From Xestospongia bergquistia (Eukaryota; Porifera; Demospongiae; Haplosclerida; Petrosiidae), in the NCBI GenBank assembly GCA_963965975.1, contig OZ014414.1, positions 8,799,230-8,863,229 of the forward strand: a stretch of 64,000 nt of DNA, written 5' to 3'. This document shows positions 5,740 through 64,000 of the stretch, piece by piece (positions within the stretch are counted from its first letter, which is position 1; each line of letters begins with the position of its first letter). A model generated the notes under the pieces. The model was not told the DNA's origin. It did not search any database and worked only from the letters and a program-made list of their open reading frames with translations. Position numbers and translations under genes: made by a program.

Positions 5740-8700
5740 TTACCAAAACCGAAGTCTGTCTTTAATAACTTGATAACTGTCTAACTTCATACAATACTCT
5801 TCATCTTGTCTTGATAAGTGTAGTTTCCTTATTGTAGTATTTTTATTAAGTGATGTACATATTATCTTGATATCATCATTGTTTAGTGAAGTATTGTAGA
5901 GATATAGTCTTGTCAATGATGTAGTTGTTTGTATTAGATCTGCTATTGTACTGGTACTAACTGAAGTGATCTGAGGATTATCTCCGATGTTCAACAAAGT
6001 CAATGTTTGGTTTTTAGTAAGTCCTTCACAGATATATCGGACTCCATTATCAGTGATGTTACAGTTGAAGAGACATAGTTCTTCTAAAGTTGTATTACTT
6101 GATAACATAGTAGATAAGTGAGTTATATCTTCATCTGTGACACCAGTAACATCAGACAACACTAACTGTTCAAGTGTTTTATTATTAAGGAGACTATCAC
6201 TGACTTGTTTGATACCACCAGTAAATGAAGAGTAGTGCAGCTCTAGTTCCGTTATTGTTTTATTAGTTTTTAGTATCTCTGATAATATCGATACACACTT
6301 ACTGTCCAATGAAGTGTCTGCTATAAAAAGACTCCACACTGTACACTTATTAAGATTGTTTATAATAACTGCAGTACTTTCAGGAGATGATGAGGAGAGA
6401 TAAATACTCCATTCTTTTCCTGTTTGTTGTTCTTTTATTAATTTACTTATAACATCTTCACTTTCTAATACGCTTGGACTAGTGAGTTCAACATTATTGT
6501 TATCATGTCTCCACTGAACACTTCCAGTGTCTCCTGTTATAAAACAGAGTTAGTATATAATATAGTACACACATAGTAATATATACTATAACACACTACA
6601 ATACACAGACAATACACTGAAGAAGAAAGGAAGCCATTACTGTTTACTGACTATGATTACTATGGCAACGAGCAAATAGGAGGCGGGGCTTATTATCCTG
6701 AATTTACTGAGATGTTCCTTTTAAATTACTGATTTACTTTTAGTTGGTCTAGCTACAGTAAGTCATGTTAATATATTACATCATTTTAATTTGTGAATTT
6801 ATTGTAGTTATAGTAACAGATAGTCTGGTATGGCCAGCCCCTTTGCTTAGAGAGGAAGGGTTTGGTAGTCCATACTATAGTACAGTTGTCTCTTTCACTA
6901 ACATTCCTGATACAACTATTGAACTTGTATCAGACAAACCACATTGTTTTTACAGTGGGTGTGGGTGGAAATTTCTTTGATCTAAAAGTGCAGGATCTAC
7001 AAACAAACATCATTAGATGTTTCTTATGAAATATTGACTTCTTTGTCCTTTCTTGTTTTATTGTATTACAATATCTTTCATTTAGTCATGTTGATTTAAC
7101 TCTGTAAAATATTCATTGTAGTCTCACAAACCAACTTAAGAGAAAGGGGCTGAGTTAATTATGTTCCTTTTATATTAACATATAATAAGGTTTACATAAA
7201 ATTAAATTCTTTTTCATCAACTGTAATATGCTACCAGATCCTTCCTCTCTAAGCAAAGGGGCTGACCTCATCAGACTATATATGGTATTATAGTATACAA
7301 TGTGGTTCTATCATAACAAGATTAGTTATAATGACATCATTATTACTTATGTCATTATAGGTGGAGTCAACTAAGACACAGTCAAGTGTATTAATATTTG
7401 TCAGTAACAATATATGTAGTAGTTAGTCCATTTTTGTTACTATTCATATAGTATAATATGATAACACTTAATATAAATATTTTATAGATCTTATCATAAT
7501 CATAACTCTATCATATTATACTGACACTAAGGGAGTCTATAGTAAATATGGAAATTCATTTTTTATATATTATGAATTTAATTATTGTGGTTTGAGAATT
7601 ATGAATATAATTTACACTATAATAATTTGTGGTTACCTGTAGTTTCATGTGTGGACTCTTCTCGGATGGATTTTGTTTGTGTTTCCTCAACTCCTTGATC
7701 AGTTACTAGTTTACGAACCTTTGGTATGAATGCTAGATCTAGTAACAATGTCGTATAATGAGAAGTGACTAATACCAGTTACCTTTCAAGCTCTGTTTTA
7801 ACTCCTCAATCTGTTGTTCTCTCTCCCTTAGCTGTAAGGTCAATGACGTTATTATTTCTTGTAGTGTCTCTAGTTCTTTCTGTCTCTCAGTAGATACTAA
7901 CAGTATAGTCTTCTCAGTAGCTTTATATAAAATGAGAAGAAAATTGATCACTAATATATTATGTAAAATACTGACAACATTGGACTTGTCATTGATGTTG
8001 TATTAATTTACCTTCCTTTGTTTTCACAAGTGATGTTAAATCTTTAATTGTCTTTTCTTTCATTTCTCTTGTTTCTATATAAAGGAACATTAAGTTATTA
8101 ATCAGATATATCATATAATAGACAGTTATTAAATAAAACAATAGTTGTACACAATATACCTTCATTTTGTCTGACAATAGATGACATTTGTATAGTCATC
8201 TTTTTCCGGATGGTTTGTTCTAGTTCCAAACGACTTCTCAACTCCTTTGTGTTCTCTTCTACAATAGTTCTAACCTCCTATATATCAATAAACAACACAT
8301 GTAGTAACTGTTGTCTAATACTACTCATTTCTTACCTTGTCTCTTTGATATTTATCATAAATGGTACAATATCCAACTGTAAGTTGAAGTAATCCTTTTT
8401 TCTTCATTTCTTCGAGTGTCTCCTGAGCTCTGGCAATAATTGATGTGGTTAGACTGAGTGGAAAAAAACAAGTGACAATGATAGACTTGCCCTCTCTAAT
8501 GACACGAATCTGTACATTATCCTCAACTGATTCAGCAATAATGTCTCGTATATCTTGCAATGTGTAGTTGGTAGGATCCCAGTCTAAGACAAAAATAGCT
8601 GTCTCACATTTGAGAAGAGAACGGCTTTTGCTTTCTTTGAAGGTTTCTTCCAGACAAAGAGAAGCTTTTGTTTCCTTACAAAATGACTGAACAATATTTT

Positions 8701-10622
8701 TGTATGCTTGTATATGTGTCTCAGCTTCTTTGATATCAAATCTCTCCACAATACCCTCCAAACAACTCATATTAATCAATGTACAATGATCACGTACAAC
8801 ATTTAAGACATCATCAATGGACTTTGAATGAGTTATTTCAGTTTCAAGGTGAGGATAACTATCAGCAAAAAAGCACATCAATTTATCCAGAGGTGGAGGA
8901 CTTTTGTTAATTGCTTCTCGGATTTTACTGAAGGCTATTCCAAATTTTTTTCTGATTGACCCAAATGTGGTGTCTAACTTTCGAGGAATTGGAATAGGTT
9001 TTAAGGCTTTATCTATACATTAAAAATAATTTAAATGGACGTAATATCTCTCCAAGTACTTACCTAATGTTTGACTTCCTTCACTACTTCCAGTATATGT
9101 TACTTGTAAGTCATAGTCAGGAAATGCTTTACCTATTAAAATAAATTTCTAACAAAAGTAAAGTCAATATCAATACTCACGACAATCTTGTATGATAGCA
9201 TTAGCACATGGTACATTGCTAGTTTGTTTTAAGAGTATACTAGCAAAGACCTCCAGATTATGATAGTTGGTATGTACAGCATGACGTACAGCTTGTAATA
9301 GGACAAATAGTGCATTTTCTTCAGATTTAGAACGTGCCTCATCTCGTATATTTGCTAATACTTCATTAGAAATAACATCCTCATCATGTAGTAACTGTGC
9401 TACCCTAACAGGATATTTAAGACATTGAGAGAGAGTGCCATAATGACAACGTAAAATGTCACTGGCCAGAGAAGCTTGCTCTATGAAATAGAATTTACTA
9501 AGTATATATTAACTATTATATATATACCATTAGAATCAGATGGTGCTTCTAAATAAAGCTTCTTCTTTTTTGGTATTAAGTCTTCATCAGATATCTCTTT
9601 GTCTTTTCTTTGTCGCTTTCTTGTATTTGATGTACTTAACTCTGTCATCTCATGAGATTGCTAGCAACAACATGTACATTGATTTAATGAACAATATTGG
9701 TATCAACCTGATATTCTAAGTCCTCCATTGTATGATGATATTCTATACCCTCCATTGAGTCACTAATATCTTGATATTGATGACCACTATGACCTGTCAT
9801 TGCTATCTCTTGTATTGCTGTCATCTGATCATCTGGATACTTTTGAGCTAAGAAAAAATAAGCAATTATACATTAAGTTAATAGTGAATGAAATTCTTAC
9901 CATATTCACTGATAATTCTCTTGGAAAGCATTTTTGTCTCTTCAAACTTAGACAGTACTGTTGCTAACACTTTCAACTTCTTGTGGTCTGAAGATATTGT
10001 TATATGTATAGCAGATAACAGAGTTGTCTTCTTCTCATCTGGAGAGTCTTGTAATGACTCCATCTTATCAAGTGTTTCTTCATTGATGCATCTCTCACTA
10101 AATAAGAGCTGAGACACTTTTACAGGATTGATCAGACATTGTGACAGTGTATCATTATGACACTGAAGAATACCAGTTGCTTCATTAGCTAGAGACTGAG
10201 AGTCCATTCCTATAATAAGAACAGTACACAATCTATAAACAAACTAGTAATATAACATTTATAACATGATATACATGTAAAAGGTTCTTGTACTTACTAG
10301 TAGGAAGATTACTGGATTTTCTCAATGTTTCCTCATACTCATGGGCAACAGTGATTTCTTCAATGACTTCCTTCCTCAAAGCATCTATCACTTGTCTTCT
10401 AGTAGCATCAGGTTTGGTATCTAACCACAACTCAAACATTTTTGTTGTTTTGTATGTGGAGTCATCTGGTAGCTTGTGAATATCTTCTAACTTCTTAATG
10501 TTCAGTTTCAACTGAATTCCCAACTGATACCATTTACTACCAATACAAATATGTTCACATAATTCATCAAGTGTTGGTTTCTCTACGAGAATCTCCTCAA
10601 AAGATAGGTTTCCTGTAGCCAT
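5740..10622 (-). CDS. Unit 2 death domain-CARD-coiled coil-LRR receptor, complete, 1055 aa
   Basis: Twelve exons were traced with GT-AG junctions: 10298-10622, 9901-10209, 9708-9847, 9528-9660, 9181-9480, 9064-9132, 8336-9012, 8160-8277, 8012-8074, 7783-7920, 7637-7738, 5740-6533. They sum to 3168 nt (1056 codons) in one frame. Order: death domain (aa 1-108); CARD-like domain (109-211); linker; an exon with a bipartite basic NLS (RKRQRKDK, PKKKK); second CARD-like domain; linker; a ~225-aa block I cannot assign; three coiled-coil exons; linker; and a 265-aa exon with about seven RI-type leucine-rich repeats. No Walker A motif is visible, so this is not a NACHT-type NLR. The start is the ATG conserved in all copies; the frame is open further upstream. 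Innate-type recognition is inferred from architecture. It lacks the two short exons present before the LRR exon in units 3, 5 and 6. Confidence 0.88.
6821..7278. mobile_element. MITE with ~40-bp inverted repeats and TA flanks, unit 2 intron
   Basis: The left end (from 6821, TAGTCTGGTATGGCCAGCCC) is mirrored at the right end (to 7278) with few differences. Shared inside are CAGCCCCTTTGCTTAGAGAG and GGAAGG. Both termini begin at a TA dinucleotide followed by GTCTG, as expected for TA-targeting (Tc1/mariner-like) MITEs. The element sits in the intron before the LRR exon, at the same place in units 2-6, so it predates the unit duplications. A short plus-strand open frame (6765-6980) spans its left end and is not taken as a gene. 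Confidence 0.6.
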
Positions 10623-10739
10623 TGCTTCTTTGCTGACACGCCTACGCAGTGTTAATAAATAAGGCCACACCCAAAATCTTAATTGATGGGCGTGGTATGA
10701 CCTGGAAAATCCCTTACCTTTCATCATCAATTTGCTATT

Positions 10740-11900: not shown

Positions 11901-12261
11901 AATGGCTCATGTCTCCTTACCACGTAGTATATCTAATGCTGACTTAGATCAAACCAATCTTTATCACGACTTTATTAAGAAGACATCCATTTTAAATGGT
12001 CATATTAAGTCATCCATACATTAATCTGTTCATTAGTTATCATACAATAGTCTGTAATGAATGGATAGATAGTCAACTAATGGACAGATGATATCAATAT
12101 TATATTTAAATGTAATATCTATTGTCAGAATTAATCACACTCCATCTACTATTGATCCATTTCATCCATCTATTCATCCATTCATACAATAGTCTGTAAT
12201 CACTACTACACAATAATATTTCAACACATAATATATTTAACATCTTATCATGTTATTATAG

Positions 12262-12262
<1 letters not shown>

Positions 12263-12288
<26 letters not shown>
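12263..12288. repeat. (CT)n microsatellite at the splice acceptor of the Cobl-like exon
   Basis: An uninterrupted CT run sits just before CATAGCAG at the start of the long Cobl-like exon, acting as a polypyrimidine tract. The unit 5 homologue (46316-46412) is much longer. Confidence 0.85.
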
Positions 12289-12292
<4 letters not shown>

Positions 12293-17634: not shown

Positions 17635-20600
17635 TTAGAATATGGAGAATTTAAGTCTGTCTTTAATAACTTGATAACTGTCTAACTTCTTACAATACTC
17701 TTCATGTTGTCTTGATAAGTATAGTTTCCTTATTGTAGTATTTTTATTAAGTGATGTACATATTGTCTTGATATCATCATTGTTCAATGAAGTATTGTCG
17801 AGATCTAGTCTTGTCAATGATGTAGTTGTTTGTATTAGATCTGCTATTGTACTGGTACTAACTGAAGTGATCTGAGGATTACCTCCGATGTTCAACATAG
17901 TCAATGTTTGGTTTTTAGTAAGTCCTTCACAGATATATCGGACTCCATTATCAGTGATGTTACAGTTGTAGAGACGTAGTTCTTTTAAAGTTGTATTACT
18001 TGATAACATAGTAGATAAGTGAGTTATATCTTCATCTGTGATATCAGTAACATTAGACAACACTAACTGTTCAAGTGTTTTATTATTAAAGAGACTATCA
18101 CTGACTTGTTTGATACCACCAGTAAGTGAAGAGGACAACAGCTGTAGTATCTTTATTGTTTTATTAGTTTTTAGTATCTCTGATAATATCGATACACACT
18201 TACTGTCCAATGAAGTGTACCTTATATAAAGACTCCTCACTGTACACTTATTAAGATTGTTTATAATAACTGCAGTACTTTCAGGAGATGATAAGGAGAG
18301 AGTAATACTCCATTCTTTTCCTGTTTGTTGTTCTTTTATTAATTTACTTATAACATCTTCACTTTGTAATACACTTGGACTAATGAGTCTAAAACTATTG
18401 ATAACATCATACCACTGAACACTTCCAGTGTCTCCTGTTATAAAACAGAGTTAGTATATAGTATAGTACACACATAGTAATATATACTATAACACACTAC
18501 AATACACTGACAATACACTGAAGAAGAAAGGAAGCCATTACTGTTTACTGACTACGGTTACTATGACAACGAGCAAATAGGAGGCGGGGCTTATTATCCT
18601 GAATTTACTGAGATGTTCCTTTTAAATTACTGATTTACTTTTAGTTGGTCTAGCTACAGTAAGTCATGTTAATATATTACATCATTTTAATTTGTGAATT
18701 TATTGTAGTTATAGTAACAGATAGTCTGGTATGACCAGCCCCTTTGCTTAGAGAGGAAGGGTTTGGTAGTCCATACGGGTTCTTCCGTGTTCGCCTACTC
18801 CGGGTTCGCCTACTCTAATTTTAACACAAAAGTACGGTTTTGCCTACGGATACCGTAATTCTAATTAAACAAATATTGCGATTTTACAAATTACAATTCA
18901 AGAGCTACTGGACCAAAAGGGTCTGAACAATGTAAATAATGATGAAGTAGTTTAAGGTAAATGATAAGTAAAGAGTGTACAATTTAATGTTAAGAAAAGT
19001 AAAGATTAAAGAATTATAATTCACAATTCAAGAGCTACTGGACCAAAAGGGTCTGAAACAATGTAAATAATGATGAAGTAGTTTAAGGTAAATGATAAGT
19101 AAAGAGTGTACAATTTAATGTTAAGAAAAGTAAAGATTAAAGAATTATAAGTTAATGTGTTGAGACATGCCTACTACATAGTCTGATAAAGAGATTACAT
19201 TACTGCTAAATCTTTCTTTGAGTTCCTTAATGTGTTGATCTTTCTCTATAGCTTTCTTTTTCTGACGAGGTGGACGTGCACTGCTGCAAGCTGCTGTATC
19301 GAAACCTCTGTGCTGACTTGTTCTCTTTGAAATACCTCAACACATTCGAAGATGTTTGGATGGGATTTACCAACTACTCGCCGTAGACATTTAACAACGA
19401 AGATTTAATTAAATTTTATAAATGTTAATTCAATAAAAAATTCAAAAACTTCTATTAATTAGAATTACGGTATCCGTAGGCAAAACCGTACTTTTGTGTT
19501 AAAATTAGAGTAGGCGAACCCGGAGTAGGCGAACCCGTACTAACTCGTCCATACTATAGTACAGTTGTCTCTTTCACTAACATTCCTGATACAACTATTG
19601 AACTTGTATCAGACAAACCATATTGTTTTTACAGTGGGTGTGGGTGGAAATTTCTTTGATCTAAAGTGCAGGATCTATAAACAAACATCATTAGATGTTT
19701 CATTATGAAATATTGACTTCTTTGTCCTTTCTTGTTTTATTGTATTACAATATCTTTCATTTAGTCATGTTGATTTAACTCTAAAAATATTCATTGTAGT
19801 CTCACAAACCAACTTAAGAGAAAGGGGCTGAGTTAATTATGTTCCTTTTATATTAACATATAATAAGGTTTACATAAAATTAAATTCTTTTTCATCAACT
19901 GTAATATGCTACCAGATCCTTCCTCTCTAAGTGAAGGGGCTGACCTCATCAGACTATATATGGTATTATAGTATACAATGTGGTTCTATCATAACAAGAT
20001 TAGTTATAATGACATCATTATTACTTATGTCCATTATAGGTGGAGTCAACTAAGACACAGTCAAGTGTATTAATATTTGTCAGTAACAATATATGTAGTA
20101 GTTAGTCCATTTTAGTTGCTATTCATGTCAATAAAGTTACATTATAAATAACAATACTTGCAGTGTATGTGTATTTTATTATATTATAATTATAATAAAC
20201 TAATATAACATTCTCTAAGTCTTACCTCTTTTGTCTGACTCTTCATCCTTTGTCTCTTTATTATCATCATAGTCCTTTAATATATCATGTAATACTGGAG
20301 ACTCTATATAAGATACTTATATTAAACATGTACATGTATATAGTGTAATATGATAACACTTAATATAAACATTTTATAGATCTTATCATAATCATAACTC
20401 TATCATATTATACTGACACTAAGGGAGTGTATAGTAAATATGGAAATTTGTGGTTTATAAATTTAATAATTATTAACATTATTGATTGTAAGAGATAGAA
20501 TATTATCATATAAACTTACTTGGAGGAGTGGTTTCATCTTTATTATCAGCTGAACCTTTTAACTGATCTTTTAACTCTAATATTAGTGGAGACTCTAGTA

Positions 20601-23600
20601 GTCACAATTAAGACATATATATTATTAACAATATTATATTATTACCTGTAGTTTCATGTGTGGACTCTTCTTGACTGGATTTTGTTTGTGTTTCCTCAAG
20701 TCCTTGATCAGTTACTGGTTTACGAACCTTTGGTATGAATGCTAGATCTAGTAACAATGTCATATAATGAGAAGTCACTAATACCAGTTACCTTTCAAGC
20801 TCTGTTTTAACTCCTCAATCTGTATCTCTCTCTCTCTTACTTGTAAAGTCAATGACGTTATTATATCTTGTAGTGTCTCTAGCTCTTTCTGTCTCTCAGT
20901 AGACACTGACAGTATATTCTTCTCAATAGCTTTATATAAAATGAGAAGAAAATTGATCACTAATATATTATGTAAAATACTGACAACATTGGACTTGTGA
21001 TTGATGTTGTATTAATTTACCTTCCTTTGTTTTCACAAGTGATGTTAAATCTTCAATTGTCTTTTCTTTCATTTCTCTTGTTTCTATATAAAGGAACATT
21101 ATTATTAATTAAGTTATTAATCAGATATATCATATAATAGATAGTTATTAAATAAAACAATAGTTGTACACAATATACCTTCATTTTGTCTGATAATAGA
21201 TGACATTTGTATAGTCATCTTTTTCCGGATGGTTTGTTCTAGTTCCAAACGACTTCTCAACTCCTTTGTATTCTCTTCTACAATAGTTCTAACATCCTAT
21301 ATATCAATAAACAACACATGTAGTAACTGTTGTCTAATACTACTCATCTCTTACCTTGTCTCTTCTATGATCATAAATGGTACAATGACCAACTGTAAGT
21401 TGAAGTAGTCCTTTCTCTTTCATTATTTCAAGAGTCTCCTGAGCTCTGGCAATAAGTAGAGTTGTTAGATTGAGTGGAAAAAAACAGGTGACAATGATGG
21501 AGTTGCCTCTTTGTATGTAACGAATCTCCACATTTATGTCAAGTGATATGGAAAGAATGTCCTCGATATCTTTCAAAGTACAATCTTTAGGATCCCAATT
21601 TAACACAAAGACAACTGTCTCACATTTGAGAAGAGAAGGAGTATTTGTTATTTTAAAACTTTCATCTAAACAGAGAGAAGCCTTTGTTTTTTGACAAAAT
21701 GACTGAACTATATCTTTGTATGCTTGTATGTGTGTCTCAGCTTCCTTGATTTTAAAGCGCTCCACGATACCCTCCAGACAATTGATGTTTATCAGTGTAC
21801 AATGCTTTCTCACAACAGTTAGTATGTCATCAATGGACTTGGAGTGAACAATTTGAGATTCAAGGTGAGGGTAGCCATCTTCAAGAAATCTTTTCAATTT
21901 ATCAAGAGGTGGAGGTGTGGTATTGATAGCTTCTCTGATATTACTAAAGGCTATTGCAAATTCCCTTTTAATTGACCCAAAAATAGGACTCAAGCTTTGA
22001 GGAAGTATAATTTCCTTTACTACATCATCTACAATAAGATCAAGAAATAATCCTTCAATATATCACACACAGTATATACTAACCTTGTCTTGAAGCTTTA
22101 GTGCTATCTAATGATTTAGTGGTCAATGGGTGTTTAACTCTGGTCTGTATTTTAGGAATGATAACATCAGGAAATACTTTTTCTATTAAAAATTAATATT
22201 AAAATTATCATTTAATTTAATGAGTACATAATAATGTATTTACCACAATCCTTTAAGACAGCATTAGCACATGGTACAGTGCTAGTAAATTTTAACAATA
22301 CACTAGCAAAGATCGTCAGATGATGATAGTTGGTATGTACAGCATGACGTACAGCTCCTAACAACATCAATAATGCTTTATTTGTTGACAAAGACTTGGC
22401 AGTATATTTTATAATTGCTAGTCTAGTTTTAGTAATAATTCCCTCTCCATAAAGGTAGTGTGCTACTCTAACAGGAAATCGGAGAGACTGAGAGAGAGTA
22501 CCATAATGACAACGTAAAATGTCACTGGCATGATCTTCATGACTACTATAACTTGTCATTACTACCTCTTGAACATTAGCTACTGTTGTCTGGTCATCTG
22601 GAAATGTTTGACCTATTAACAATATGTATTAATTATAAATTATTTAATTGACCTCTTACCATATTCACTGATAATTCTCTTGGAGAGCATTTTCGTCTCT
22701 TCAAACTTGGACAGTACTGTTGCTAACACTTTCAACTTCTTATGATCTGAAGATATTGTTATATGTATAGCAGATAACAGAGTTGTCTTCTTCTCATCTG
22801 GAGTGCCTTGCAATGACTCCATCTTATCAAGTGTTTCTTCATTGATGCATCTCTCACTAAATAAGAGCTGGAACACTTTTACAAGATTGATCTGAGATTG
22901 TGACATCTCTTCAATAAAACTTTGGAGAGTATTTTCCTTCACTAAGGAACATATTCACTGACTGCATCAATAAATGTTGTATCAACTTACCTTTAGTTAA
23001 GTGTTGATGTATTTCATTAGCCTTCTTAATATTATTAACAATAGGACCCTTGATGGAAGTAATCACCGTTTCCCAGGTAACAAGATGTGACTCAGTAGTG
23101 GTTAACCAGCTATGAATAACTTGAGCTAGTTTGTAAGTATTACTCTTTTCACTGTTTGTTAAACCATTTAAAATATTGCAAGAGACTTTCAATGATAATC
23201 CAATCTCATACCACATATCACTAATATCAGCTAATTGATAATGTAGTTCATGTTCAGTAGGAGCCTTCCTCAAAATATATGAAATATCTAAAATGAAGTA
23301 ATACATTAAAACAACTGATAGTGAATGTTATATCAAGTCTTGTATGTTACCTGGTTCTTGAGTTTGAGGCAGTATGTGTGTATGGGATTGAAGAATAGCA
23401 CCTGGTTCAGTACTTGGGATATCCATTCCTATAATAAAAATGACACATAACCATTAATAAACTAATAATATAATATTTATAACATGATGTACATGTAAAG
23501 TACTTACTTGTAGAAAGACTACAGGATTTCCACAATGTCTGCTCATACTCATGGGCAATGGTGAGTTCTTCCTTCCTCAAAGCATCTATCACTTGTCTTC

Positions 23601-37736: not shown

Positions 37737-37740
37737 ATAA

Positions 37741-40216: not shown

Positions 40217-43200
40217 TTACAAGAACTCAAGTCTGTCTTTAATAACTTCATAACTGTCTAACATCTTACAATACTCTTTATGTTGTCTTGATAAGTGTAG
40301 TTCCCTTATTGTAGTATTTTTATTAAGTGATGTACATATTGTCTTGATATCATCATTGTTCAGTGAAGTATCGTAGAGATATAGTCTTGTCAATGATGTA
40401 GTTGTTTGTATTAGATCTGCTATTGTACTGGTACTAACTGAAGTGATCTGAGGATTACATCCGATGTCCAAAATAGTCAATGTTTGGTTTTTAGTAAGTC
40501 CTTCACAGATATATCGGACTCCATTATCAGTGATGTTACAGTTGTAGAGCTCTAGTTCTTTTAAAGTTGTATTACTTGATAACATAGTAGATAAGTGAGT
40601 TATATCTTCATCTGTGATATCAGTAACATAAGACAACACTAACTGTTCAAGTGTTTTATTATTAAAGAGACTATCACTAACTTGTTTGATACCACCAGTA
40701 AGTGAAGAGGAACGCAGCCGTAGTCTCTTTATTGTTTTATTAGTTTTTAGTATCTCTGATAATATCGATACACACTTACTGTCCAATGAAGTGTTCTCTA
40801 TACCAAGTCTCCACATTGTACACTTATTAAGATTGTTTATAATAACTGCAGTACTTTCAGGAGATGATGAGGAGAGATCAATACTCCATTCTTTTCCTGT
40901 TTGTTGTTCTTTTATTAACTTACTTATAACATCTTCACTTTCTAATACACTTGGACTAGTGAGTATAACAATATTGTCATCATTATACCAATGAACTCTT
41001 CCAGTGTGTCCTGTTATAAAACAGAGTTAGTATATAGTATAGTACACACATTGTAATATATACTATAACACACTACAATACACAGACAATACACTGAAGA
41101 AAAAAGGAAGCCATTATTGTTTACTGACTATGGTTACTATGGCAACGAGCAAATAGGAGGCGGGGCTTATTATCCTGAATTTACTGAGATGTTCCTTTTA
41201 AATTACTGATTTACTTTTAGTTGGTCTAGCTACAGTAAGTCATGTTGATATATTACATCATTTTAATTTGTGAATTTATTGCAGTTATAGTAACAGATAG
41301 TCTGGTATGGCCAGCCCCTTTGCTTAGAGAGGAAGGGTTTGGTAGTCCATACTATAGTACAGTTGTCTCTTTCACTAACATTCCTGATACAACTATTATC
41401 AGACAAACCACATTGTTTTTACAGTGGGTGTGGGTGGAAATTTCTTTGATCTAAAAGTGCAGTCATTAGATGTTTCATTATGAAATATTGACTTCTTTGT
41501 CCTTTCTTGTTTTATTGTATTACAATATCTTTCATTTAGTCATGTTGATTTAACTCTGTAAAAATATTCATTGTAGTCTCACAAACCAACTTAAGAGAAA
41601 GGGGCTGAGTTAATTATGTTCCTTTAATATTAACATATAATAAGGTTTACATAAAATTAAATTCTTTTTCATCAACTGTAATATGCTACCAGATCCTTCC
41701 TCTCTAAGCAAAGTTGCTGACCTCATCAGACTATATATGGTATTATAGTATACAATGTGGTTCTATCATAACAAGATTAGTTATAATGACATCATTATTA
41801 CTTATGTCCATTATAGGTGGAGTCAACTAAGACACAGTCAAGTTTATTAATATTTGTCAGTAACAATATATGTAGTAGTTAGTCCATTTTAGTTGTTATT
41901 CATGTCAATAAAGTTACATTATAAATAACAATACTTGTAGTGTATGTGTATTTTATTATATTATAATTATAATAAATTAATATAACATTCTCTAAGTCTT
42001 ACCTCTTTTGTCTGACTCTTCATCCTTTGTCTCTTTATCATCATAGTCCTTTAATATATCATGTAATACTGGAGACTCTATATAAGATACTTATATTAAA
42101 CATGTACATGTATATAGTGTAATATGATAACACTTAATATAAACATTTTATAGATCTTATCATAATCATAACTCTATCATATTATACTGACACTAAGGGA
42201 GTCTATAGTAAATATGGAAATTCATTTTTTATATATTATGAATTTAATTATTGTGGTTTGAGAATTATGAATATAATTTACACTATAATAATTTGTGGTT
42301 TATAAATTTAATAATTATTAACATTATTGATTGTAAGAGATAGAATATTATCATATAAACTTACTTGGAGGAGTGGTTTCATCTTTATTATCAGCTGAAC
42401 CTTTTAACTGATCTTTTAACTCTAATATTAGTGGAGACTCTAGTAGTCACAATTAAGACATATATAATATTAACAATATTATATTATTACCTGTAGTTTC
42501 ATGTGTGGACTCTTCTTGGCTGGATTTTGTTTGTGTTTCCTCAAGTCCTTGATCAGTTACTGGTTTACGAACCTTTGGTATGAATGCTAGATCTAGTAAC
42601 AATGTCATATAATGAGAAGTCACTAATACCAGTTACCTTTCAAGCTCTGTTTTAACTCCTCAATCTGTTGGTCTCTCTCCCTTAGCTGTAAAGTCAACAA
42701 CGTTATTATTTCTTGTAGTGTCTCTAGTTCTTTCTGTCTCTCAGTAGACACTGACAGTATATTCTTCTCAAAAGCTTTATATAAAATGAGAAGAAAATTG
42801 ATCACTAATATATTATGTAAAATACTGACAACATTGGACTTGTCATTGATGTTGTATTAATTTACCTTCCTTTGTTTTCACAAGTGATGTTAAATCTTCA
42901 ATTGTCTTTTCTTTCATTTCTCTTGTTTCTATATAAAGGAACATTAAGTTATTAATCAGATATATCATATAATAGACAGTTATTAAATAAAACAATAGTT
43001 GTACACAATATACCTTCATTTTGTCTGATAATAGATGACATTTGTATAGTCATCTTTTTCCGGATGGTTTGTTCTAGTTCCAGACGACTTCTCAACTCCT
43101 TTGTGTTCTCTTCTACAATAGTTCTAATCTCCTATATATCAATAAACAACACATGTAGTAACTGTTGTCTAATACTACTCATCTCTTACCTTGTCTCTTC

Positions 43201-45216
43201 TATGATCATAAATGGTACAATGACCAACTGTAAGTTGAAGTAATCCTTTCTCTTTCATTATTTCAAGAGTCTCCTGAGCTCTGGTAATAAGTAGAGTTGT
43301 TAGATTCAGTGGAAAAAAACAGGTGACAATGATGGAGTTGCCTCTTTGTATGTAACGAATCTCCACATTGATGTCAAGTGATATGGAAAGAATATCCTCA
43401 ATATCTTTCAAAGTACAATCTTTAGGATCCCAGTTTAACACAAAGACAACTGTCTCACATTTGAGAAGAGAAGGAGTATTTGTTATTTTAAAACTTTCAT
43501 CCAGACAGAGGGAAGCTTTTGTTTTTTCACAAAATGACTGAACAATATCTTTGTATGTTTGTATATGTGTCTCAGCTTCCTTGATTTTGAAGCGCTTCAC
43601 AATACCCTCCAAACAACTGATGTTGATGACTGTACAGTGATCATTTACAACATCTAGGACATCATCAATGGAATTAGAATGAGCTATTTGAGATTTTAAG
43701 TGAGAGTAACCATCTTTAAGAAACTGTTTCAATTTATCCAGAGGTGGAGGTGTGGTATTGATAGCTTCTCGGATATTACTAAAGGCTATTGCAAATTCAC
43801 TTTTAATTGACCCAAAAATAGGACTCAAACTTTGAGGAAGTATAATTTCCTTTACTACATCATCTACAATAAGATCAAGAAATAATCCTTCAATATATCA
43901 CACACAGTATATACTAACCTTGTCTTGAAGCTTTAGTGCTATCTAATGATTTAGTGGTCAATGGGTGTTTAACTCTGGTCTGTACTTCAGGAATGATAAC
44001 ATCAGGAAATACTTTCTCTATTAAAAATTAATATTAAAATTATCATTTAATATAATGAGTACATAGTAATGTATTTACCATAATCCTTTAAGATAGCATT
44101 AGCACATGGTACATTGCTAGTAAATTTTAACAGCACGCTAGCAAAGATCATCAGATGATGATAGTTGGTATGTACAGCATGACGTACAGCTCCTAACAAC
44201 ATCAATAATGCTTTATTTGCTGACAAAGACTTGGCAGTATATTTTATAATTGCTAGTCTAGTTTTAGTAATAACTCCCTCTCCATAGAGGTAGTAAGCTA
44301 CTCTAACAGGATATCGGAGAGACTGAGAGAGAGTACCATAATGACAACATAAAATGTCACTGGCATGATCTTCATGACTACTATAACTTGTCATTACTAC
44401 CTCTTGAACATTAGTTACTGTTGTCTGGTCATCTGGAAATGTTTGACCTATTAACAATAAGTATTAATTATAAATTATTTAATTGACCTCTTACTATATT
44501 CACTGATAATTCTCTCAGATAGTGTTTTTGTCTCTTCAAACTTGGACAGTACTGTTGCTAACACTTTCAACTTCTTGTGATCTGAAGATATTGTTATATG
44601 TATAGCAGATAACAGAGTTGTCTTCTTCTCATCTGGAGATCCCTGCAATGACTCCATCTTATCAAGTGTTTCTTCACTAATGCATCTCTCACTAAATAAG
44701 AGCTGAGACACTTTTACAGGATTAATCAGACACTGTGACAGTGTATCATTATGACACTGAAGAATACAAGTTGCTTCATTAGCTAGAGACTGAGAGTCCA
44801 TTCCTATAATAAGAACAGTACACAATTCATAAACAAACTAATAATATAACATTTATAACATGATGTACATGTAAAAGGTTCTTGTACTCACTAGTAGGAA
44901 GACTACTGGATTTTCTCAACATTTGCTCATACTCATGGGCAATAGTGATTTCTTCAATAACTTCCTTCCTCAAAGCATCTATCACTTGTCTTCTAGTAGC
45001 ATCAGGTTTGGTATCTAACCACAATTCAAACATTTTTGTTGTTTTGTATATGGAGTCATCTGGTAGCTTGTGAATATCTTCTAACTTCTTAGCGTTCAGT
45101 TTCAACTGAATTCCCAACTGATACCATTTACTACCAATACGAATATGTTCACATAATTCATCAAGTGTTGGTTTCTCTACGAGAATCTCCTCAAAAGATA
45201 GGTTTCCTGTAGCCAT
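40217..45216 (-). CDS. Unit 5 receptor, complete, 1046 aa
   Basis: Twelve exons: 44892-45216, 44495-44803, 44079-44447, 43919-44017, 43190-43863, 43014-43131, 42866-42928, 42637-42774, 42491-42592, 42365-42439, 42003-42077, 40217-41010; 3141 nt, one frame. Death domain and first CARD-like domain resemble unit 2. From the fused CARD exon (GQTFPDDQTTV-type start, no NLS exon) through most of the ~225-aa block it resembles unit 3 (LSPIFGSIK, CETVVFVLNWDPKDC), so the gene is mosaic. Coiled-coil exons include KELETLQEIITLLTLQLRER. The LRR exon has its own strand residues (RLGIENT, RLRLRSSS, LDIGCNPQ) and ends DRLEFL. One linker exon is 3 nt shorter than in the other copies. Receptor function is inferred from architecture. 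Confidence 0.88.
41298..41733. mobile_element. TA-flanked MITE, unit 5 intron
   Basis: This is the same element and insertion point as 6821-7278, slightly shortened internally (about 41393 and 41461). The right inverted repeat is diverged (AAGTTGCTGACC). Confidence 0.55.
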
Positions 45217-45427
45217 TGCTTTTTTGCTGGCACGCCCACACAGCGTTATAAGACAAAACCACACCCAAAGATCTTAATCCCTTACCTTTTCCTACACTTG
45301 CTATTTGCTATTGCGCCATATTTTATAGACTTCAGAGACAATGTCCTGAGAATTGTAAACAGAGATCATCTTTAATGAGAGGTAAGATAATGTTACTTGT
45401 GTAGTAATTATAACTTATTGCGTACTT

Positions 45428-51888: not shown

Positions 51889-54800
51889 TTACCAGAACAC
51901 AAGTCTGTCTTTAATAACTTGATAACTGTCTAACGTCTTACAATACTCTTTATGTTGTCTTGATAAGTGTAGTTTCCTTATTGTAGTATTTTTATTAAGT
52001 GATGTACATATTGTCTTGATATCATCATTGTTTAGTGAAGTATTGTAGAGATATAGTCTTGTCAATGATGTAGTTGTTTGTATTAGATCTGCTATTGTAC
52101 TGGTACTAACTGAAGTGATCTGATGATTACGTCCGATGTTCAACACAGTCAATGTTTGGTTTTTAGTAAGTCCTTCACAGATATATCGGACTCCATTATC
52201 AGTGATGTTACAGTTGTAGAGATGTAGTTCTTTTAAAGTTGTATTACTTGATAACATAGTAGATAAGTGAGTTATATCTTCATCTGTGATATCAGTAACA
52301 TTAGACAACACTAACTGTTCAAGTGTTTTATTATTAAAGAGACTATCACTGACTTGTTTGATAACACCAGTAAGTGAAGAGGACAACAGCTGTAGTATCT
52401 TTATTGTTTTATTAGTTTTTAGTATCTCTGATAATATCGATACACACTTACTGTCCAATAAAGTGTTCCATATCTCAAGTCTCCTCACTGTACACTTATT
52501 AAGATTGTTTATAATAACTGCTGTACTTTCAGGAGATGATGAGATGAGACGAATACTCCATTCTTTTCCTGTTTGTTGTTCTTTTATTAATTTACTTATA
52601 ACATCTTCACTTTGTAATACACTTGGACTAGTGAGTCTAACACTATTGATAACATCATTCCACTGAACACTTCCAGTGTCTCCTGTTATAAAACAGAGTT
52701 AGTATATAGTATAGTACACACATAGTAATATATACTATAACACACTACAATACACTGAAGAAGAAAGGAAGCCATTACTGTTTACTGACTACGGTTAATA
52801 TGGAAACGAGGAAATAGAAGGCGGGGCTTATTATCCTGAATTTACTGAGATGTTCCTTTTAAATTACTGATTTACTTTTAGTTGGTCTAGCTACAGTAAG
52901 TCATGTTGATATATTACATCATTTTAATTTGTGAATTTATTGTAGTTATAGTAACAGATAGTCTGTTATGGCCAGCCCCTTTGCTTAGAGAGGAAGGGTT
53001 TGGTAGTCCATACTATAGTACAGTTGTCTCTTTCACTAACATTCCTGATACAACTATTGAACTTGTATCAGACAAACCACATTGTTTTTACAGTGGGTGT
53101 GGGTGGAAATTTCTTTGATCTAAAAGTGCAGGATCTACAAACAAACATCATTAGATGTCTCATTCTGAAATATTGACTTCTTTGTCCTTTCTTGTTTTAT
53201 TGTATTACAATATCTTTCATTTAGTCATGTTGATTTAACTCTGTAGAAATATTCATTGTAGTCTCACAAACCAACTTAAAAGAAAGGGGCTGAGTTAATT
53301 ATGTTCCTTTTATATTAACATATAATAAGGTTTACATAAAATTAAATTCTTTTTCATCAACTGTAATATGCTACCAGATCCTTCCTCTCTAAGTGAAGGG
53401 GGCTGACCTCATCAGACTATATATGGTATTATAGTATACAATGTGGTTCTATCATAACAAGATTAGTTATAATGACATCATTATTACTTATGTCCATTAT
53501 AGGTGGAGTCAACTAAGACACAGTCAATTGTATTAATATTTGTCAGTAACAATATATGTAGTAGTTAGTCCATTTAGTTGCTATTCATGTCAATAAAGTT
53601 ACATTATAAATAACAATACTTGTAGTGTATGTGTATTTTATTATATTATAATTATAATAAACTAATATAACATTCTCTAAGTCTTACCTCTTTTGTCTGA
53701 CTCTTCATCCTTTGTCTCTTTATTATCATCATAGTCCTTTAATATATCATGTAATACTGGAGACTCTATATAAGATACTTATATTAAACATGTACATGTA
53801 TATAGTGTAATATGATAACACTTAATATAAACATTTTATAGATCTTATCATAATCATAACTCTATCATATTATACTGACACTAAGGGAGTCTATAGTAAA
53901 TATGGAAATTCATTTTTTATATATTATTAATTTAATTATTGTGGTTTGAGAATTATGAATATAATTTACAATATAATAATTTGTGGTTTATAAATTTAAT
54001 AATTATTAACATTATTGATTGTAAGAGATAGAATATTATCATATAAACTTACTTGGAGGAGTGGTTTCATCTTTATTATCAGCTGAACCTTTTAACTGAT
54101 CTTTTAACTCTAATATTAGTGGAGACTCTAGTAGTTACAATTAAGACATATATATTAGTAACAATATTATATTATTACCTGTAGTTTCATGTGTGGATTC
54201 TTCTTGGATGGATTTTGTTTGTGTTTCCTCAAATCCTTGATCAGTTACTGGTTTATGAACCTTTAGTATGAATGCTAGATCTAGTAACAATGTCATATAA
54301 TGAGAAGTCACTAATACCAGTTACCTTTCAAGCTCTGTTTTAACTCCTCAATCTGTTGGTCTCTCTCTCTTACTTGTAAAGTCAATGACGTTATTATTTC
54401 TTGTAGTGTCTCTAGCTCTTTCTGTCTCTCAGCAGACACTGACAGTATATTCTTCTCAATAGCTTTATATAAAATGAGAAGAAAATTGATCACTAATATA
54501 TTATGTAAAATACTGACAACATTGGACTTGTCATTGATGTTGTATTAATTTACCTTCCTTTGTTTTCACAAGTGATGTTAAATCTTCAATTGTTTTTTCT
54601 TTCATTTCTCTTGTTTCTATATAAAGGAATATTAATTTATTAATCAGATATATCATATAATAGACAGTTATTAAATAAAGCAATAGTTGTACACAATATA
54701 CCTTCATTTTGTCTGACAATAGATGACATTTGTATAGTCATCTTTTTCCGAATGGTTTGTTCTAGTTCCAAACGACTTTTCAACTCCTTTGTATTCTCTT

Positions 54801-56983
54801 CTACAATAGTTGTAATCTCCTATATATCAATAAACAACACATGTAGTAACTGTTGTCTAATACTATTACTACCTTGTCTCTTTGATGTTTATCATAAATG
54901 TTACAATATCCAATTGTAAGTTGAATTAATCCTTTTTTCTTCATTTCTTCAAGTGTCTCCTGAGCTCTGGCAATAATTACGGTGGTTAGACTGAGTGGAA
55001 AAAAACAAGTGACAATGATAGACCTGCCACTTCTTAAATCAAGAATCTCTACATTTCCTCCAACTGATTCAGCAATAATGTCTCGTATATCTTGTAATGT
55101 GTAGTCAGTAGGATCCCAGTCTAAGACAAAGATGGCTGTCTCACATCGGAGAAAAGAAGGAGTTCTTGTTTCTTTGAAATTTTCATCCAGACAAAGAGAA
55201 GCTTTTGTTTTTTCACAAAATGTTTGAACATCATCTTTGTATGTTTGTATATATGTCTCTGCTTCTTTAACATCAAAACGCTCCACAATACCCTCAAGAC
55301 AATTGATATTAATCAGTGTACAATGATTTCTCACAACTGTTAGGACTTCATCAATACATTTAGTGTTGTCTATTTCAGATTGAAGGTGAGAGTAACCATC
55401 TTCAAGAAATAGTTTCAGTTCCTCCAGAGGTGGAGGGCTTGCTTTAATAGCTTTTCGAATTTTACTAAAGGATACTGCAAACTTTCTTCTAATAGACCCA
55501 AATATAGAGTCTAACTTGCGAGGTATTTTAATACTTCTTGTCAATGAAGCTTCATCTACAGATATTAAAAATGAAACTGTTAAATGTCACAATTAACCTG
55601 GACCTAATGTTAACTGGTTCTCAAGCAAAGATGGATTATCTAATATTTATCTAATTAATTAGTTTAATTTATTTATTATCTAATGTTTGATATAATGAAA
55701 ATACATTCTAAATTACATAATGACTACCTTTACTAACTGCAGTAACACTAGGTTGTACTTCAACAGCATTATCTTCTGATAATACTTTCTCTACAAAGAA
55801 TATTTATTTTAAGAATTGTATTTATAACTAGCATTTTATACTTACCATAATCCTTTAAGATAGCATTAGCACATGGTACAGTGCTAGTAAATTTTAACAA
55901 TATATTAGCAAACACCTCCAGGTGATGGTAGTTGGTATGTACAGCATGACGTACAGCTTTTAGCAGAAGAAAAATTGCTTCTTTCTCGGAATGAGATTGC
56001 GCAGTAGTTTTCACATTAAACAAAGTTGTCTGTGAAATAACTCTCTCTTCACAGAGTAATTGAGCTACTCTAATAGGATAATGAAGAGACTGAGAGAGAG
56101 TACCATAATGACAACATAAAATGTCACTGGCATGATCTTCATGACTACTATAACTTGTCATTACTACCTCTTGAACATTAGCTACTGTTGTCTGGTCATC
56201 TGGAAATGTTTGACCTATTAACAATATGTATTAATTATAAATTATTTAATTGACCTCTTACCATATTCACTGATAATTCTCTCAGATAGTGTTTTTGTCT
56301 CTTCAAACTTGGACAGTACTGTTGCTAACATTTTCAACTTCTTATGATCTGAAGATATTGTTATATGTATAGCAGATAACAAAGTTGTCTTCTTCTCATC
56401 TGGAGATCCTTGTAATGATTCCATCTTATCAAGTGTTTCTTCACTAATGCATCTCTCACTAAATAAGAGCTGGGACACTTTTACTGGATTAATCAGACAC
56501 TGTAACAGTGTATCATTATGACACTGAAGAATAGCAGTTGCTTCATTAGCTGGGGACTGAGAGTCCATTCCTATAATAAGAACAGTACACAATCTATTAA
56601 CAAACTAGTAATATAACATTTATAACATGATGTATATGTAAAAGGTTCTTGTACTTACTAGTAGGAAGACTACTGGATTTTCTCAACATTTGCTCATACT
56701 CGTGGGCAACAGTGATTTCTTCAATGACTTCCTTCCTCAAAGCATCTATAACTTGTCTTCTAGTAGCATCAGGTTTGGTATCTAACCACAACTCAAACAT
56801 TTTTGTTGTTTTGTATGTGGAGTCATCTGGTAGCTTGTGAATATCTTCTAACTTCTTAGCGTTCAGTTTCAACTGAATTCCCAACTGATACCATTTACTA
56901 CCAATACGAATATGTTCACATAATTCATCAAGAGTAGGTTTCTCTTCTAGAATCTCCTCAAAAGATAGGTTTCTTGTAGCCAT
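51889..56983 (-). CDS. Unit 6 receptor, complete, 1038 aa
   Basis: Twelve exons: 56659-56983, 56262-56570, 55846-56214, 55728-55790, 54873-55555, 54702-54819, 54554-54616, 54325-54462, 54179-54280, 54053-54127, 53688-53765, 51889-52682; 3117 nt, one frame. It has one death domain, unlike its block counterpart unit 3. The first CARD-like domain and the fused second CARD exon lack the NLS. The ~225-aa block resembles unit 2, not unit 3 (CETAIFVLDWDPTDYTLQDI). Coiled coils and two short acidic linkers follow. The LRR exon has strand residues EIWNT, ILQLLSSS, LHLYNCN, LNIGRNHQ and ends DRLVFW. Upstream lies the conserved GGTGACCTTTTGGGTGGGC motif. No ATPase motif is visible. Confidence 0.88.
52959..53419. 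mobile_element. TA-flanked MITE, unit 6 intron
   Basis: Same family and position as 6821-7278. The left end has GTCTGTTATGGCCAGCCCC and the right end TGACCTCATCAGACTA. Confidence 0.58.
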
Positions 56984-57016
56984 TGCTCTTTGTATGGTGA
57001 CACACCCAGTGAATTT

Positions 57017-60805: not shown

Positions 60806-60809
60806 TCAT

Positions 60810-61830: not shown

Positions 61831-61831
61831 A

Positions 61832-62073: not shown

Positions 62074-63240
62074 TTATCTGTGTAAGATAATGAAATCACA
62101 CATAAAAATTAGAATAAACTTATTGAGAGAGGAGGAGGAGCTATTGATGGATGGTTGAGAATTGGAGGAGGAGCTATAGAGGGAGGGTTGAGAGTTTGAG
62201 AAGGAGTACTGTAAGGAGGGTGGAATTTTAGAGAAGGAGTGGTAGAGAAAGAGTGAAGAATTGGAGGTAATGATAATGTAATGATAGAGGAAGATGAAGA
62301 AAGCTGGAATAATAGTAGACATTGGTTTACAGGTATTTTCAAGTTTTACTAGCCTATCTTTTAGCTGAGTAATATCACTTGTTAAGACAAATACTGAGGA
62401 GACTAGAGACTTCACACAGTAAGGACAGATACTGAGGAGACTAGAGACTTCACACAGTAAGGACAGATACTGAGGAGACTAGAGACTTCACACAGTAAGG
62501 ACAGATAATGAGGAGAATAGAGACTTCACACAGTAAGGACAAATGAAGGGATAGTTAGCAGCAACAGTGGGAGAGATGTTAACACATTCACTATGAGACC
62601 AACAAGACTCACATTCTATCATGTGGCCAGTGTCTTCTTGGGTCAAACAGACACACGTCACAACATCTTCTTTATCATTTCCAGGACCTGGATTTAATTC
62701 AATGTTGCCAGAGAGTAGAAGAAGGAGAAGAAGTAGAACTATAGCTTGGTACGTTGATGAACTACTACGATGGAGGTGAGAAAAAGACTTTGTCAGATAT
62801 CTACGATGTCTGGGTCGATTTGGTACAAAAACAAGACCATACATGTAACAGGTGATGTGTAGACTTCTTTCCTCGAGAGACAGTTTCTGAGAGAAGGCAG
62901 CGTACGAGTGGAAAGACAGAAAAAAGAAGCACATCAGAAATAGCTGACCGCGCGCCATTTTGATACTAGAATATTGTCATCTCTGAATATAAGACAGGTC
63001 ATGTTGACTTCTTTAGGTGGTCTAAAATATAATGCAAGTACATTTCTCATTGCTTGAGGTCTTCTCTCGCCACAAAGGGTTAAAAATAATACTCCGCCCA
63101 CAAATAATAATTATAGCGACCAGCTGTTAGAGAGACAAAAAAGTGCGACGTTAGAGAAGTAAGTGTCAAGCAAAACTGCTCTATTTTTATTGTCTACTAG
63201 TTTTGTTAGAGAAATAAATTGTTTATAAAAGAAGAGAAAA
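62074..63240 (-). mobile_element. LINE 2A-PHD ORF fragment, unit 7
   Basis: The minus-strand frame 62958-62488 is open from the start methionine through the hydrophobic N-terminus, leucine run, SGNIELNPGP (D to N at the usually conserved 2A aspartate) and PHD finger. Four 38-bp repeats (about 62390-62540) and a shortened coiled coil/Ser-Pro tail follow. The D-to-N change would be expected to weaken skipping, from known 2A requirements. Confidence 0.8.
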
Positions 63241-63318: not shown

Positions 63319-64000
63319 TTACACGAACACAAGTCTGTCTTCAATAACTTGATAACTGTCTAACTTCTTACAATACTCTTTATATTGTCTTGATAAGTAT
63401 AGTTCCCTTATTGTAGTATTTTTATTAAGTGATGTACATATTGTCTTGATATCATCATTGTTTAGTGAAGTATTGTAGAGATATAGTCTTGTCAATGATG
63501 TAGTTGTTTGTATTAGATCTGCTATTGTACTGGTACTAACTGAAGTGATCTGAGGATTATGTCCGATGTCCAAAATAGTCAATGTTTGGTTTTTAGTAAG
63601 CCCTTCACGAATATATCGGACTCCATCATCAGTGATGTTACAGTTGTAGAGTTCTAGTTCTTTTAAAGTTGTATTACTTGATAACATAGTAGATAAGTGA
63701 GTTATATCTTCATCTGTGATATCAGTAACATGAGACAACACTAACTGTTCAAGTGTTTTATTATTAAAGAGACCATCACTGACTTGTTTGATAACACCAG
63801 TAAGTGAAGAGGAACGCAGCCGTAGTCTCTTTATTGTTTTATTAGTTTTTAGTATCTCTGATAATATCGATACACACTTACTGTCTAATAAAGTGTTCTC
63901 TATACCAAGTCTCCACACTGTACACTTATTGAGATTGTTTATAATAACTGCAGTACTTTCAGGAGATGATGAGTAGAGATCAATACTCCATTCTTTTCCT
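63319..64000 (-). CDS. Unit 7 receptor, LRR exon only (cut by the window)
   Basis: This is the terminal LRR exon of a further receptor gene whose 5' exons lie right of the window. It is open throughout. About seven RI-type repeats have strand residues RLGIENT, RLRLRSSS, VLSHVTD, LELYNCN, LDIGHNPQ and RELYLSRQYKEY, and the end is DRLVFV. By position it corresponds to unit 4, but its strands are closer to unit 5, suggesting conversion between units. A LINE fragment lies 3' on the same strand. Confidence 0.8.
   Translation of the reverse strand, partial: GKEWSIDLYSSSPESTAVIINNLNKCTVWRLGIENTLLDSKCVSILSEILKTNKTIKRLRLRSSSLTGVIKQVSDGLFNNKTLEQLVLSHVTDITDEDITHLSTMLSSNTTLKELELYNCNITDDGVRYIREGLTKNQTLTILDIGHNPQITSVSTSTIADLIQTTTSLTRLYLYNTSLNNDDIKTICTSLNKNTTIRELYLSRQYKEYCKKLDSYQVIEDRLVFV

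Follow-up and report, generated by a model that had tools for sequence, protein, structure and literature searches.

Short-tract exchange and diversifying selection as probable shapers of a variable leucine-rich repeat exon in a tandem receptor array of the sponge Xestospongia bergquistia

Introduction

The VLRs of lampreys carry their variable residues on the concave face of a leucine-rich repeat (LRR) domain and are assembled somatically, in lymphocyte-like cells, from partial cassettes that flank an incomplete germline gene. Concerted evolution together with selection on surface codons is known from the NWD genes of Podospora anserina (PMC1805685) and, by domain, from the NLR-B30.2 genes of zebrafish (PMC4852459), and plant NLRs are an established case of variability on the LxxLxLxx surface (PMC8226289). 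In sponges, an architecture made of a Death-like domain, TRADD-N and a variable C-terminus is expanded in Amphimedon queenslandica, for which 357 Death-like/TRADD-N proteins with TRADD-N of the NCOA6 clade are described (PMC8195603), and a survey of sponge NLRs concerns NACHT genes (PMC12909245). Here we analyze a 64,000-nucleotide stretch of the genome of the sponge Xestospongia bergquistia (contig OZ014414.1, C4:8799230-8863229, hereafter the window, with positions counted from 1) that lies in a tandem array of genes ending with an LRR exon. The minus strand of the window carries all the receptor exons. Five of its gene units have every main exon and two others are present in part, and the exon order per unit is Death, two CARD-like exons, an exon called X here (225-228 amino acids) and one LRR exon. 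We show that the exposed strand codons of the LRR exon have the pattern of diversifying selection and that the uniformity of the backbone is confined to this exon, whatever the divergence of exon X.

Results

Diversity concentrates on the strands of the LRR exon

Searching the assembly (146.5 Mb, 21 contigs) for the LRR exon gave 143 matching rows, two of which are halves of one place and 126 of which list no stop; by a hand count of the row list, 59 of the 143 fall inside C4:8.43-9.63 Mb, the array around the window. We collected 93 copies (90 loci and three from the window), of which 84 remained after removal of two exact duplicates and seven copies with a stop. The core array sample comprises 55 copies and the entropy table 91 distinct copies.

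The initial annotation of the window, made without database searches, had described LRR exons in units 2 to 7 that are nearly identical in helices and loops and differ at the exposed positions of the strands. This observation is confirmed and is stronger than was claimed. All the strand strings quoted for units 2-7 were found in the translated exons. The five strands listed and the one preceding them do vary, but the list was short, as alignment and model give nine variable strands, the further ones being at codons 14-19, 209-214 and 237-242. Helices and loops are indeed far less variable, but they are not invariant: 27 of 214 non-strand columns vary in the six window copies.

We defined as hot the 36 codons at offsets -1, +1, +3 and +4 from the first strand leucine of the nine strands and compared them with the 214 other codons of the range analyzed (codons 13-262). 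In the six window copies 55 of the 250 compared columns vary, 28 of them within the 36 exposed strand codons and 27 within the other 214 (hypergeometric p 4e-15), and in the 84 copies 29 of the top 36 most variable codons belong to the 36-codon set (p 8e-25). Neither p-value is blind, given that the offsets were chosen after viewing the 91-copy entropy table; the initial annotation had already named the non-leucine strand positions. High entropy among the 91 distinct copies is found mainly at strand positions, with exceptions that include codons 7, 9, 12, 67, 187 and 262. In the seven regular repeats, whose first strand leucines are at codons 69, 97, 124, 153, 181, 210 and 238, the proportion of nonsynonymous differences (pN) is 0.02-0.03 at offsets 0 and +2, 0.27-0.42 at -1, +1, +3 and +4, and 0.12-0.13 at -2 and +6.

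The site-wise comparison of nonsynonymous and synonymous rates (dN/dS) that the initial annotation had proposed gave values above 1 at the hot codons of the main family, and the variable codons were not scattered evenly across strands, helices and loops. In the 84 stop-free copies dN/dS is 2.56 at hot codons (bootstrap over codons 1.94-3.51), 0.53 at the other 214 codons (0.42-0.67) and 0.21 at the strand leucine positions. These ratios come from simple counting. Since recombination makes a tree unreliable, none was used, and third-base controls took its place.

In the core array, hot codons differ at the first base in 0.38 and at the second in 0.35 of the comparisons, and synonymous third bases of NNY codons differ in 0.031 inside hot codons versus 0.016 elsewhere. 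Codons beside hot ones differ in 0.067, 0.036 and 0.078 at their three base positions, versus 0.061, 0.054 and 0.064 for other codons, and some leucine or isoleucine codons flanked by two hot codons are invariant in every copy having that residue. Local hypermutation was therefore dropped as an explanation, the third bases inside hot codons being nearly as conserved as elsewhere. Adenine-templated mutagenesis, in which variation is confined to template adenines as in the targets of diversity-generating retroelements, was dropped as well: codon 98 begins with A in a single copy out of 84 and with C, G or T in all others (no template search was made). Synonymous diversity is higher near hot codons, reaching 0.055 between two of them (18 codons) versus 0.013-0.017 at least four codons away, which is what the retention of old variants by selection would produce. 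Among residues with five or more occurrences at a site, a single codon per residue per site was used in 2563 of 2666 cases (96%), and each variant codon therefore arose rarely, having since been passed around. Among close copies, the pair L023/L024 has 36 nucleotide changes in the 36 hot codons and six in the other 214, and the closest 100 pairs show a hot pN of 0.31 at a backbone proportion of synonymous differences (pS) of 0.015. Selection, and not the local mutation rate, explains the diversity of the hot codons.

We also examined a distant set of 20 copies (L095-L114), mostly of one subfamily and 54-73% identical to the LRR exon of unit 3, from which five copies with a stop at or near an end of the fetched piece were set aside. 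These copies lie at C4:0.32-0.62 Mb, C1:1.6 Mb and other places. Without refitting, offsets -1, +1, +3 and +4, plus -2, peak again. The dN/dS at the hot codons of this set is only 1.01 (nine copies, one cluster) or 1.13 (15 copies), and hot pS is also high. Close pairs of the distant cluster have a hot pN of 0.20-0.30 versus a backbone pS of 0.02-0.05; another close pair, L113/L114, gives 0.07.

Uniformity is limited to the LRR exon

We compared exon X and the LRR exon across 25 genes (300 pairs). A single copy of each exon contained a stop; both were kept and the stop codons skipped. Identity of X ranges from 36% to more than 80% and its pS by bin from 0.155 to 0.65, and in every X-identity bin the LRR backbone pS is 0.030-0.042 and the hot pN 0.32-0.33. 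The window units alone give an X pS of 0.21-0.56 and an LRR backbone pS of 0.02-0.09. Diversity of the upstream flank (31 copies) rises from 0.02 in the last 50 nucleotides before the exon to 0.33 at 250-300 nucleotides, and that of the downstream flank (31 copies) from 0.10-0.19 in the first 200 nucleotides to 0.34-0.49 beyond 250. In the closest 45 of 93 alignable pairs the flanks are 2.8-7.3% diverged, with 8-26 backbone changes and 13-26 of the 36 hot codons different. This indicates that homogenisation acts on the LRR exon without regard to the other parts of the gene, which supplies the gene conversion half of the explanation developed below and had escaped the initial annotation.

Linkage disequilibrium between hot codons is close to zero (mean z of 1.0 for codons of one strand and 0.3-0.5 at larger distances), with an excess mutual information of 0.048 within strands and 0.009 between strands. 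Distinct faces are carried by 53 of the 55 core copies, and 81 are found among the 84 copies overall. Shuffling of whole strands as cassettes was rejected, since many strand variants are singletons (46 distinct versions of the codon-69 strand in 55 copies) and even codons of the same strand vary almost independently.

In a recent 5.3-kb duplicate pair, about 77 kb apart, we counted 17 substitutions. All of them lie in codons 67-101 (104 nucleotides), 13 in hot codons, and the only other difference is one 2-nucleotide intron gap. The change over 104 nucleotides looks as if a single short tract had been replaced. A set of three LRR exons recurs at a distance of 74-77 kb (C4:8777135-8799300 and C4:8851124-8876700), two pairs being identical and one rewritten over these 104 nucleotides. 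The 74-77 kb repeat could be an assembly effect. The duplication could represent two haplotypes that were joined end to end in the assembly, in which case the two copies would be alleles, but the reading as a tract would still stand.

Forward simulations were run as a plausibility check and not as a fit (three sets of 8, 11 and 19 runs with a pool of 500 and a single seed, apart from one repeat), with selection strength and conversion rate left free; neutral diversity was noisy and most runs failed to match. With conversion and a rare-variant advantage but no raised mutation, three of 19 runs came close to the observed combination. They gave a hot diversity of 0.54-0.66, a far-neutral diversity of 0.012-0.024 and an excess mutual information of 0.07 within and 0.004-0.011 between strands, the observed values for the same measures being 0.594, 0.013-0.017, 0.048 and 0.009.

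Fold and gene structure

The AlphaFold model of the LRR exon of unit 3 has a mean predicted local distance difference test score (pLDDT) of 87.7 and a predicted template modelling score (pTM) of 0.86, and the hot codons fall on its strands. Model, leucines and profile agree on repeats of 27-29 residues in which an LxxLxLxx strand alternates with a helix, as in LRRs of the ribonuclease inhibitor (RI) type. The profile of alignment A2 matches RI (E 2.4e-27) and also NLRP proteins, whose LRRs are likewise RI-type. Strand tryptophans of human RI (chain 1z7x_W) align on hot codons 70, 72, 125 and 182, and we take these residues to be its known contacts. RI itself is a conserved inhibitor and not a diversified family. 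Together, the codon tests and the match between model strands and variable codons support the proposal of the initial annotation that the concave face of these RI-type LRRs is under diversifying selection.

In the window the LRR exons lie on the minus strand at 5740..6534 (unit 2, alignment A2), 17635..18435 (unit 3), 30021..30815 (unit 4), 40217..41011 (unit 5), 51889..52683 (unit 6) and 63319..64000 (unit 7); apart from the exon of unit 3, they were delimited by open frame and alignment. The exon of unit 3, with its nine variable strands and RI-like fold, matches LRR_6 over the cut-off (E 2.8e-6), that of unit 6 is identical to a copy about 74 kb away at C4:8777135, and that of unit 7 is truncated by the window end to codons 39-263, its full version being L043. 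Five of these exons are thus whole and open and the sixth is cut by the window edge, and the five complete units each have their own upstream exons. As in NLRs the LRRs are C-terminal (LRR_6 over the cut-off, NLRP3 profile match E 4e-20). A second feature that had gone unremarked in the initial annotation is that no NACHT domain was found. Within C4:8.43-9.63 Mb there was none, and 97 matches lie elsewhere (103 of 156 genome-wide candidates scored, so that a weak match may escape); the Pfam scan did not find NACHT in the window exons scanned either, and NB-ARC was left without a genome-wide search. Membership in the NLRs was accordingly dropped for an array in which no NACHT was found among the candidates scored.

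Upstream of the LRR exon, all on the minus strand, exon X is found at 8336..9013 (unit 2, alignment A1), 21355..22029 (unit 3, alignment A3, model m6416bea97ee3) and, by alignment, at 34148..34825, 43190..43864 and 54873..55556 (units 4 to 6). No Pfam family reaches the cut-off for exon X. Its model in unit 3 has helices at residues 14-121 followed by a b-a-b-b-a-b order of strands (b) and helices (a) at 134-220, with a mean pLDDT of 65.6 that is lower in the second half. TRADD-N is described as an RRM-like fold with a small residue and a serine in the turn between strands 2 and 3 (PMC8195603). In exon X the serine in the turn before the third strand is invariant (24 of 24), in the form G-x-S (glycine in more than 90%) and not as the G-S of TRADD-N. 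The second half of exon X is therefore considered a putative TRADD-N, as the modelled b-a-b-b-a-b order and the invariant serine resemble the published description; neither Pfam nor PDB sequence profiles gave a TRADD-N match. Other PDB matches to this half, to pentatricopeptide proteins (about 25 residues) and NBR1 (E 0.5-0.7), were set aside.

The Death-domain exon of unit 5 (44920..45220, approximate ends, minus strand) matches PF00531 with E 1.1e-6 and is the sole Death exon scanned; its counterparts on the same strand, placed by alignment only, are near 537-820, 10290-10630, 23500-23810, 36120-36440 and 56690-57000. Death domains are very numerous in the genome, with at least 150 matches (150 scored of 983 candidates). 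The first CARD-like exon of unit 5 lies at 44505..44807 (minus strand, alignment A4), with counterparts at 145-453, 9905-10213, 22661-22954, 35763-36071 and 56272-56574, and the second at 44077..44391 (minus strand, alignment A5), with counterparts at 9200-9475, 22242-22556, 35060-35335 and 55829-56143. Both are CARD-like by eye only: neither could be assigned to a known domain, as no Pfam family exceeded the cut-off and no PDB profile match was credible. Pfam recognizes just two of the receptor exons scanned, the LRR exon of unit 3 and the Death exon of unit 5. An additional exon-like open frame of unit 3 lies at 22911..23327 (minus strand), death-like by eye, for which no Pfam family exceeds the cut-off and of which no similar frame was seen in the open reading frame list of the other window units. 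Short coiled-coil-like and linker exons are interspersed (read by eye, in unit 3 only), those with a coiled-coil look lying between X and LRR at 20790..21300 on the minus strand.

Other sequences in the window

Beside LRR exons, retroelement-like frames with a 2A-like motif were recognized by eye on the minus strand at 16540-17301, 29187-29597, 39393-39866 and 62488-62976. The last, the only one scanned, is PHD finger-like (PHD_5, E 7.9e-6, just under the cut-off), and a 38-bp tandem repeat lies near three of the four frames. An insert at 18780-19540, bounded by 15-bp and 131-bp tandem repeats and possibly a small transposon, lies in the intron that precedes the LRR exon in unit 3. Related plus-strand frames at 12200-14182 and 46417-47622, the second being shorter, represent a duplicated gene type interleaved with the receptors; the first has a WH2-like motif (E 7e-5, just under the cut-off). 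A weak match to a kinase end was found at 15867-16181 (E 0.009), with a similar unscanned frame at 59264-59593. An FKBP-type frame (PF00254 over the cut-off) is located at 37601-38008 (plus strand), with a near copy by eye, unscanned, at 3137-3445 (plus strand).

Discussion

We favour, with a probability of about 0.77, the explanation that a large tandem receptor family is shaped by short-tract gene conversion and strong diversifying selection on the LRR face. It is based on what is shown here, that is (i) the codon pattern, (ii) the exon-limited uniformity of the backbone, (iii) the near linkage equilibrium, (iv) one recent tract-like replacement and (v) the exon order in the window. That gene conversion is the copying process, and that there is an immune or self/non-self role, a ligand, a series of signalling steps and a cytosolic location, is what we infer. 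The receptors, taken as intracellular, would present Death, CARD-like, putative TRADD-N and coiled-coil parts in front of an RI-type LRR exon that comes last and would act as the sensor, with about 36 codons of the concave side under strong diversifying selection. Short-tract gene conversion would copy pieces of the LRR exon among array members, and perhaps exchange them with copies elsewhere, homogenising the scaffold and reshuffling the variable codons to near independence, and selection would retain rare or new combinations until nearly every copy has its own face. Binding of a ligand at the LRR may then relieve an inhibition via the TRADD-N/coiled-coil part, and the released Death and CARD modules may assemble a signalling platform.

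Several results weigh against this explanation. A weak correlation between X and LRR divergence persists (Spearman 0.30), and shared runs of at least nine hot codons are scarce (6 of 1326 pairs, about 2 expected). No donor was found for the replaced tract, the best other matches reaching 94% and 96% over 147 nucleotides (40 of 156 candidates scored in each search), so that the source may be a copy outside those scored or an allele carried by other individuals, unless another process was at work. Some close pairs have changed in the backbone only, namely W4/L048 (nine backbone and no hot changes, 97.8% identical over 1268 nucleotides including the exon), L062/L066 (eight and none) and L031/L039 (four and none), and change at hot codons is therefore not clock-like. 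Finally, the simulations needed 2-6 scaled conversion starts per nucleotide versus a scaled mutation of 0.03 per site, a high ratio of about 67-200, and lower conversion rates, or a rate of 1-2 with strong selection, left more linkage disequilibrium than observed. This high conversion rate is the main strain on the favoured explanation and the reason why the case for a dedicated process is kept.

Such a dedicated mechanism, resembling a diversity-generating retroelement or driven by a deaminase during copying, would rewrite the hot codons and leave selection a secondary part. It would account for 17 substitutions within 104 nucleotides of a near-identical 5.3-kb duplicate without a donor among the 40 of 156 candidates scored, for the near independence of codons a few nucleotides apart and for the high hot pN of the closest 100 pairs (0.31 at a backbone pS of 0.015), but it fits badly with hot-codon third bases nearly as conserved as elsewhere, with one codon per residue per site in 96% of cases and with the lack of a single template base behind the hot bases (A at position 1 of codon 98 in one of 84 copies). 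Simulation runs with raised mutation left more linkage disequilibrium than observed and some close pairs keep every hot codon, and we consider this mechanism improbable. There is a small chance that the LRR exons of the array form one freely recombining population on which a dedicated copying process acts, sparing the rest of the gene. If true, this process would be a germline, perhaps also somatic, engine of receptor diversity in an early animal lineage, and the 104-nucleotide replacement would be a rewriting event.

Two further explanations are contradicted by the data, and we give them very little credence. The first is that a single ancestral gene expanded recently and that its copies then diverged in the ordinary way under positive selection, with no conversion. 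This would suit the tandem arrangement and the recent duplication of a 5.3-kb stretch about 77 kb away, but the divergence of exon X (pS up to 0.65 by bin) greatly exceeds that of the LRR backbone (0.03-0.04), which is nearly independent of X identity, and linkage disequilibrium is near zero. The second is that constraint on its nucleotide sequence makes the backbone look younger than it is, the hot codons being merely relaxed. The backbone pN/pS of 1.04 in the closest 100 pairs does point to weak selection there, of which the hot codons might be an extreme, but relaxation cannot produce a dN/dS above 1 with strand leucines in between at 0.21, and the uniform stretch runs into the intron and the 3' flank, where it fades with distance. 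A different alternative keeps the evolutionary pattern unchanged and makes the system one of allorecognition instead of pathogen sensing, which we regard as unlikely but worth bearing in mind. Large tandem families are generally more usual for pathogen recognition. The closest evolutionary parallel, however, the Podospora NWD genes, serves allorecognition (PMC1805685).

Under gene conversion with diversifying selection, the more than 100 LRR-exon copies look like a large inherited recognition set kept diverse by selection. If so, this animal uses LRRs in a plant-like manner, as a large germline recognition set, without the NACHT switch. A uniform scaffold and saturated contact codons in one exon make a very clear footprint of conversion and diversifying selection, and the pattern would mark likely contact residues from sequence, useful in hunting for ligands and testing specificity. 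With the array one could also examine if a repertoire can arise through conversion by itself or through a dedicated process. In the open-access literature searched, no title or abstract start reports this combination in NACHT-less animal LRR proteins. An Amphimedon NLR study by Yuen et al. may contain related observations.

The likeness to lamprey VLRs raised by the initial annotation holds for the look of the surface only, since the exons described here are complete LRR blocks in a germline assembly with their own upstream exons, and nothing speaks for the somatic assembly by which VLRs are built. The exon architecture resembles the published Amphimedon one, with TRADD-N membership suggested by a low-confidence model with no profile match. 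Here, too, there is an N-terminal Death-like domain, recognized as PF00531 in the exon of unit 5, with which the counterparts align. The Amphimedon proteins differ in having SH3 before the LRRs (PMC8195603); none was seen here, although no SH3 search was made. The accessible text of that paper contains neither the term positive selection nor the term gene conversion, and no site-level selection on LRRs (PMC8195603). Zebrafish NLR-B30.2 genes likewise number hundreds in clusters, with a C-terminal domain that is converted across groups and positively selected, but it is B30.2 that varies, the LRRs are not particularly variable and NACHT is present (PMC4852459). The comparison with plant NLRs fits well: the high-entropy residues of the highly variable NLRs (hvNLRs) of Arabidopsis lie on the exposed LxxLxLxx surface and include aromatics, as here (PMC8226289). 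These hvNLRs vary allelically (PMC8226289), whereas we compared paralogs of one genome with RI-type LRRs and no NACHT found. Podospora NWD/HNWD genes carry WD40 repeats on fungal NACHT proteins (69 repeat units in 10 genes), as opposed to whole animal LRR exons in an array where no NACHT was found (PMC1805685). In both systems, repeats are homogenised between loci, a few surface codons beside conserved ones are positively selected and exchange supplies the combinations (PMC1805685).

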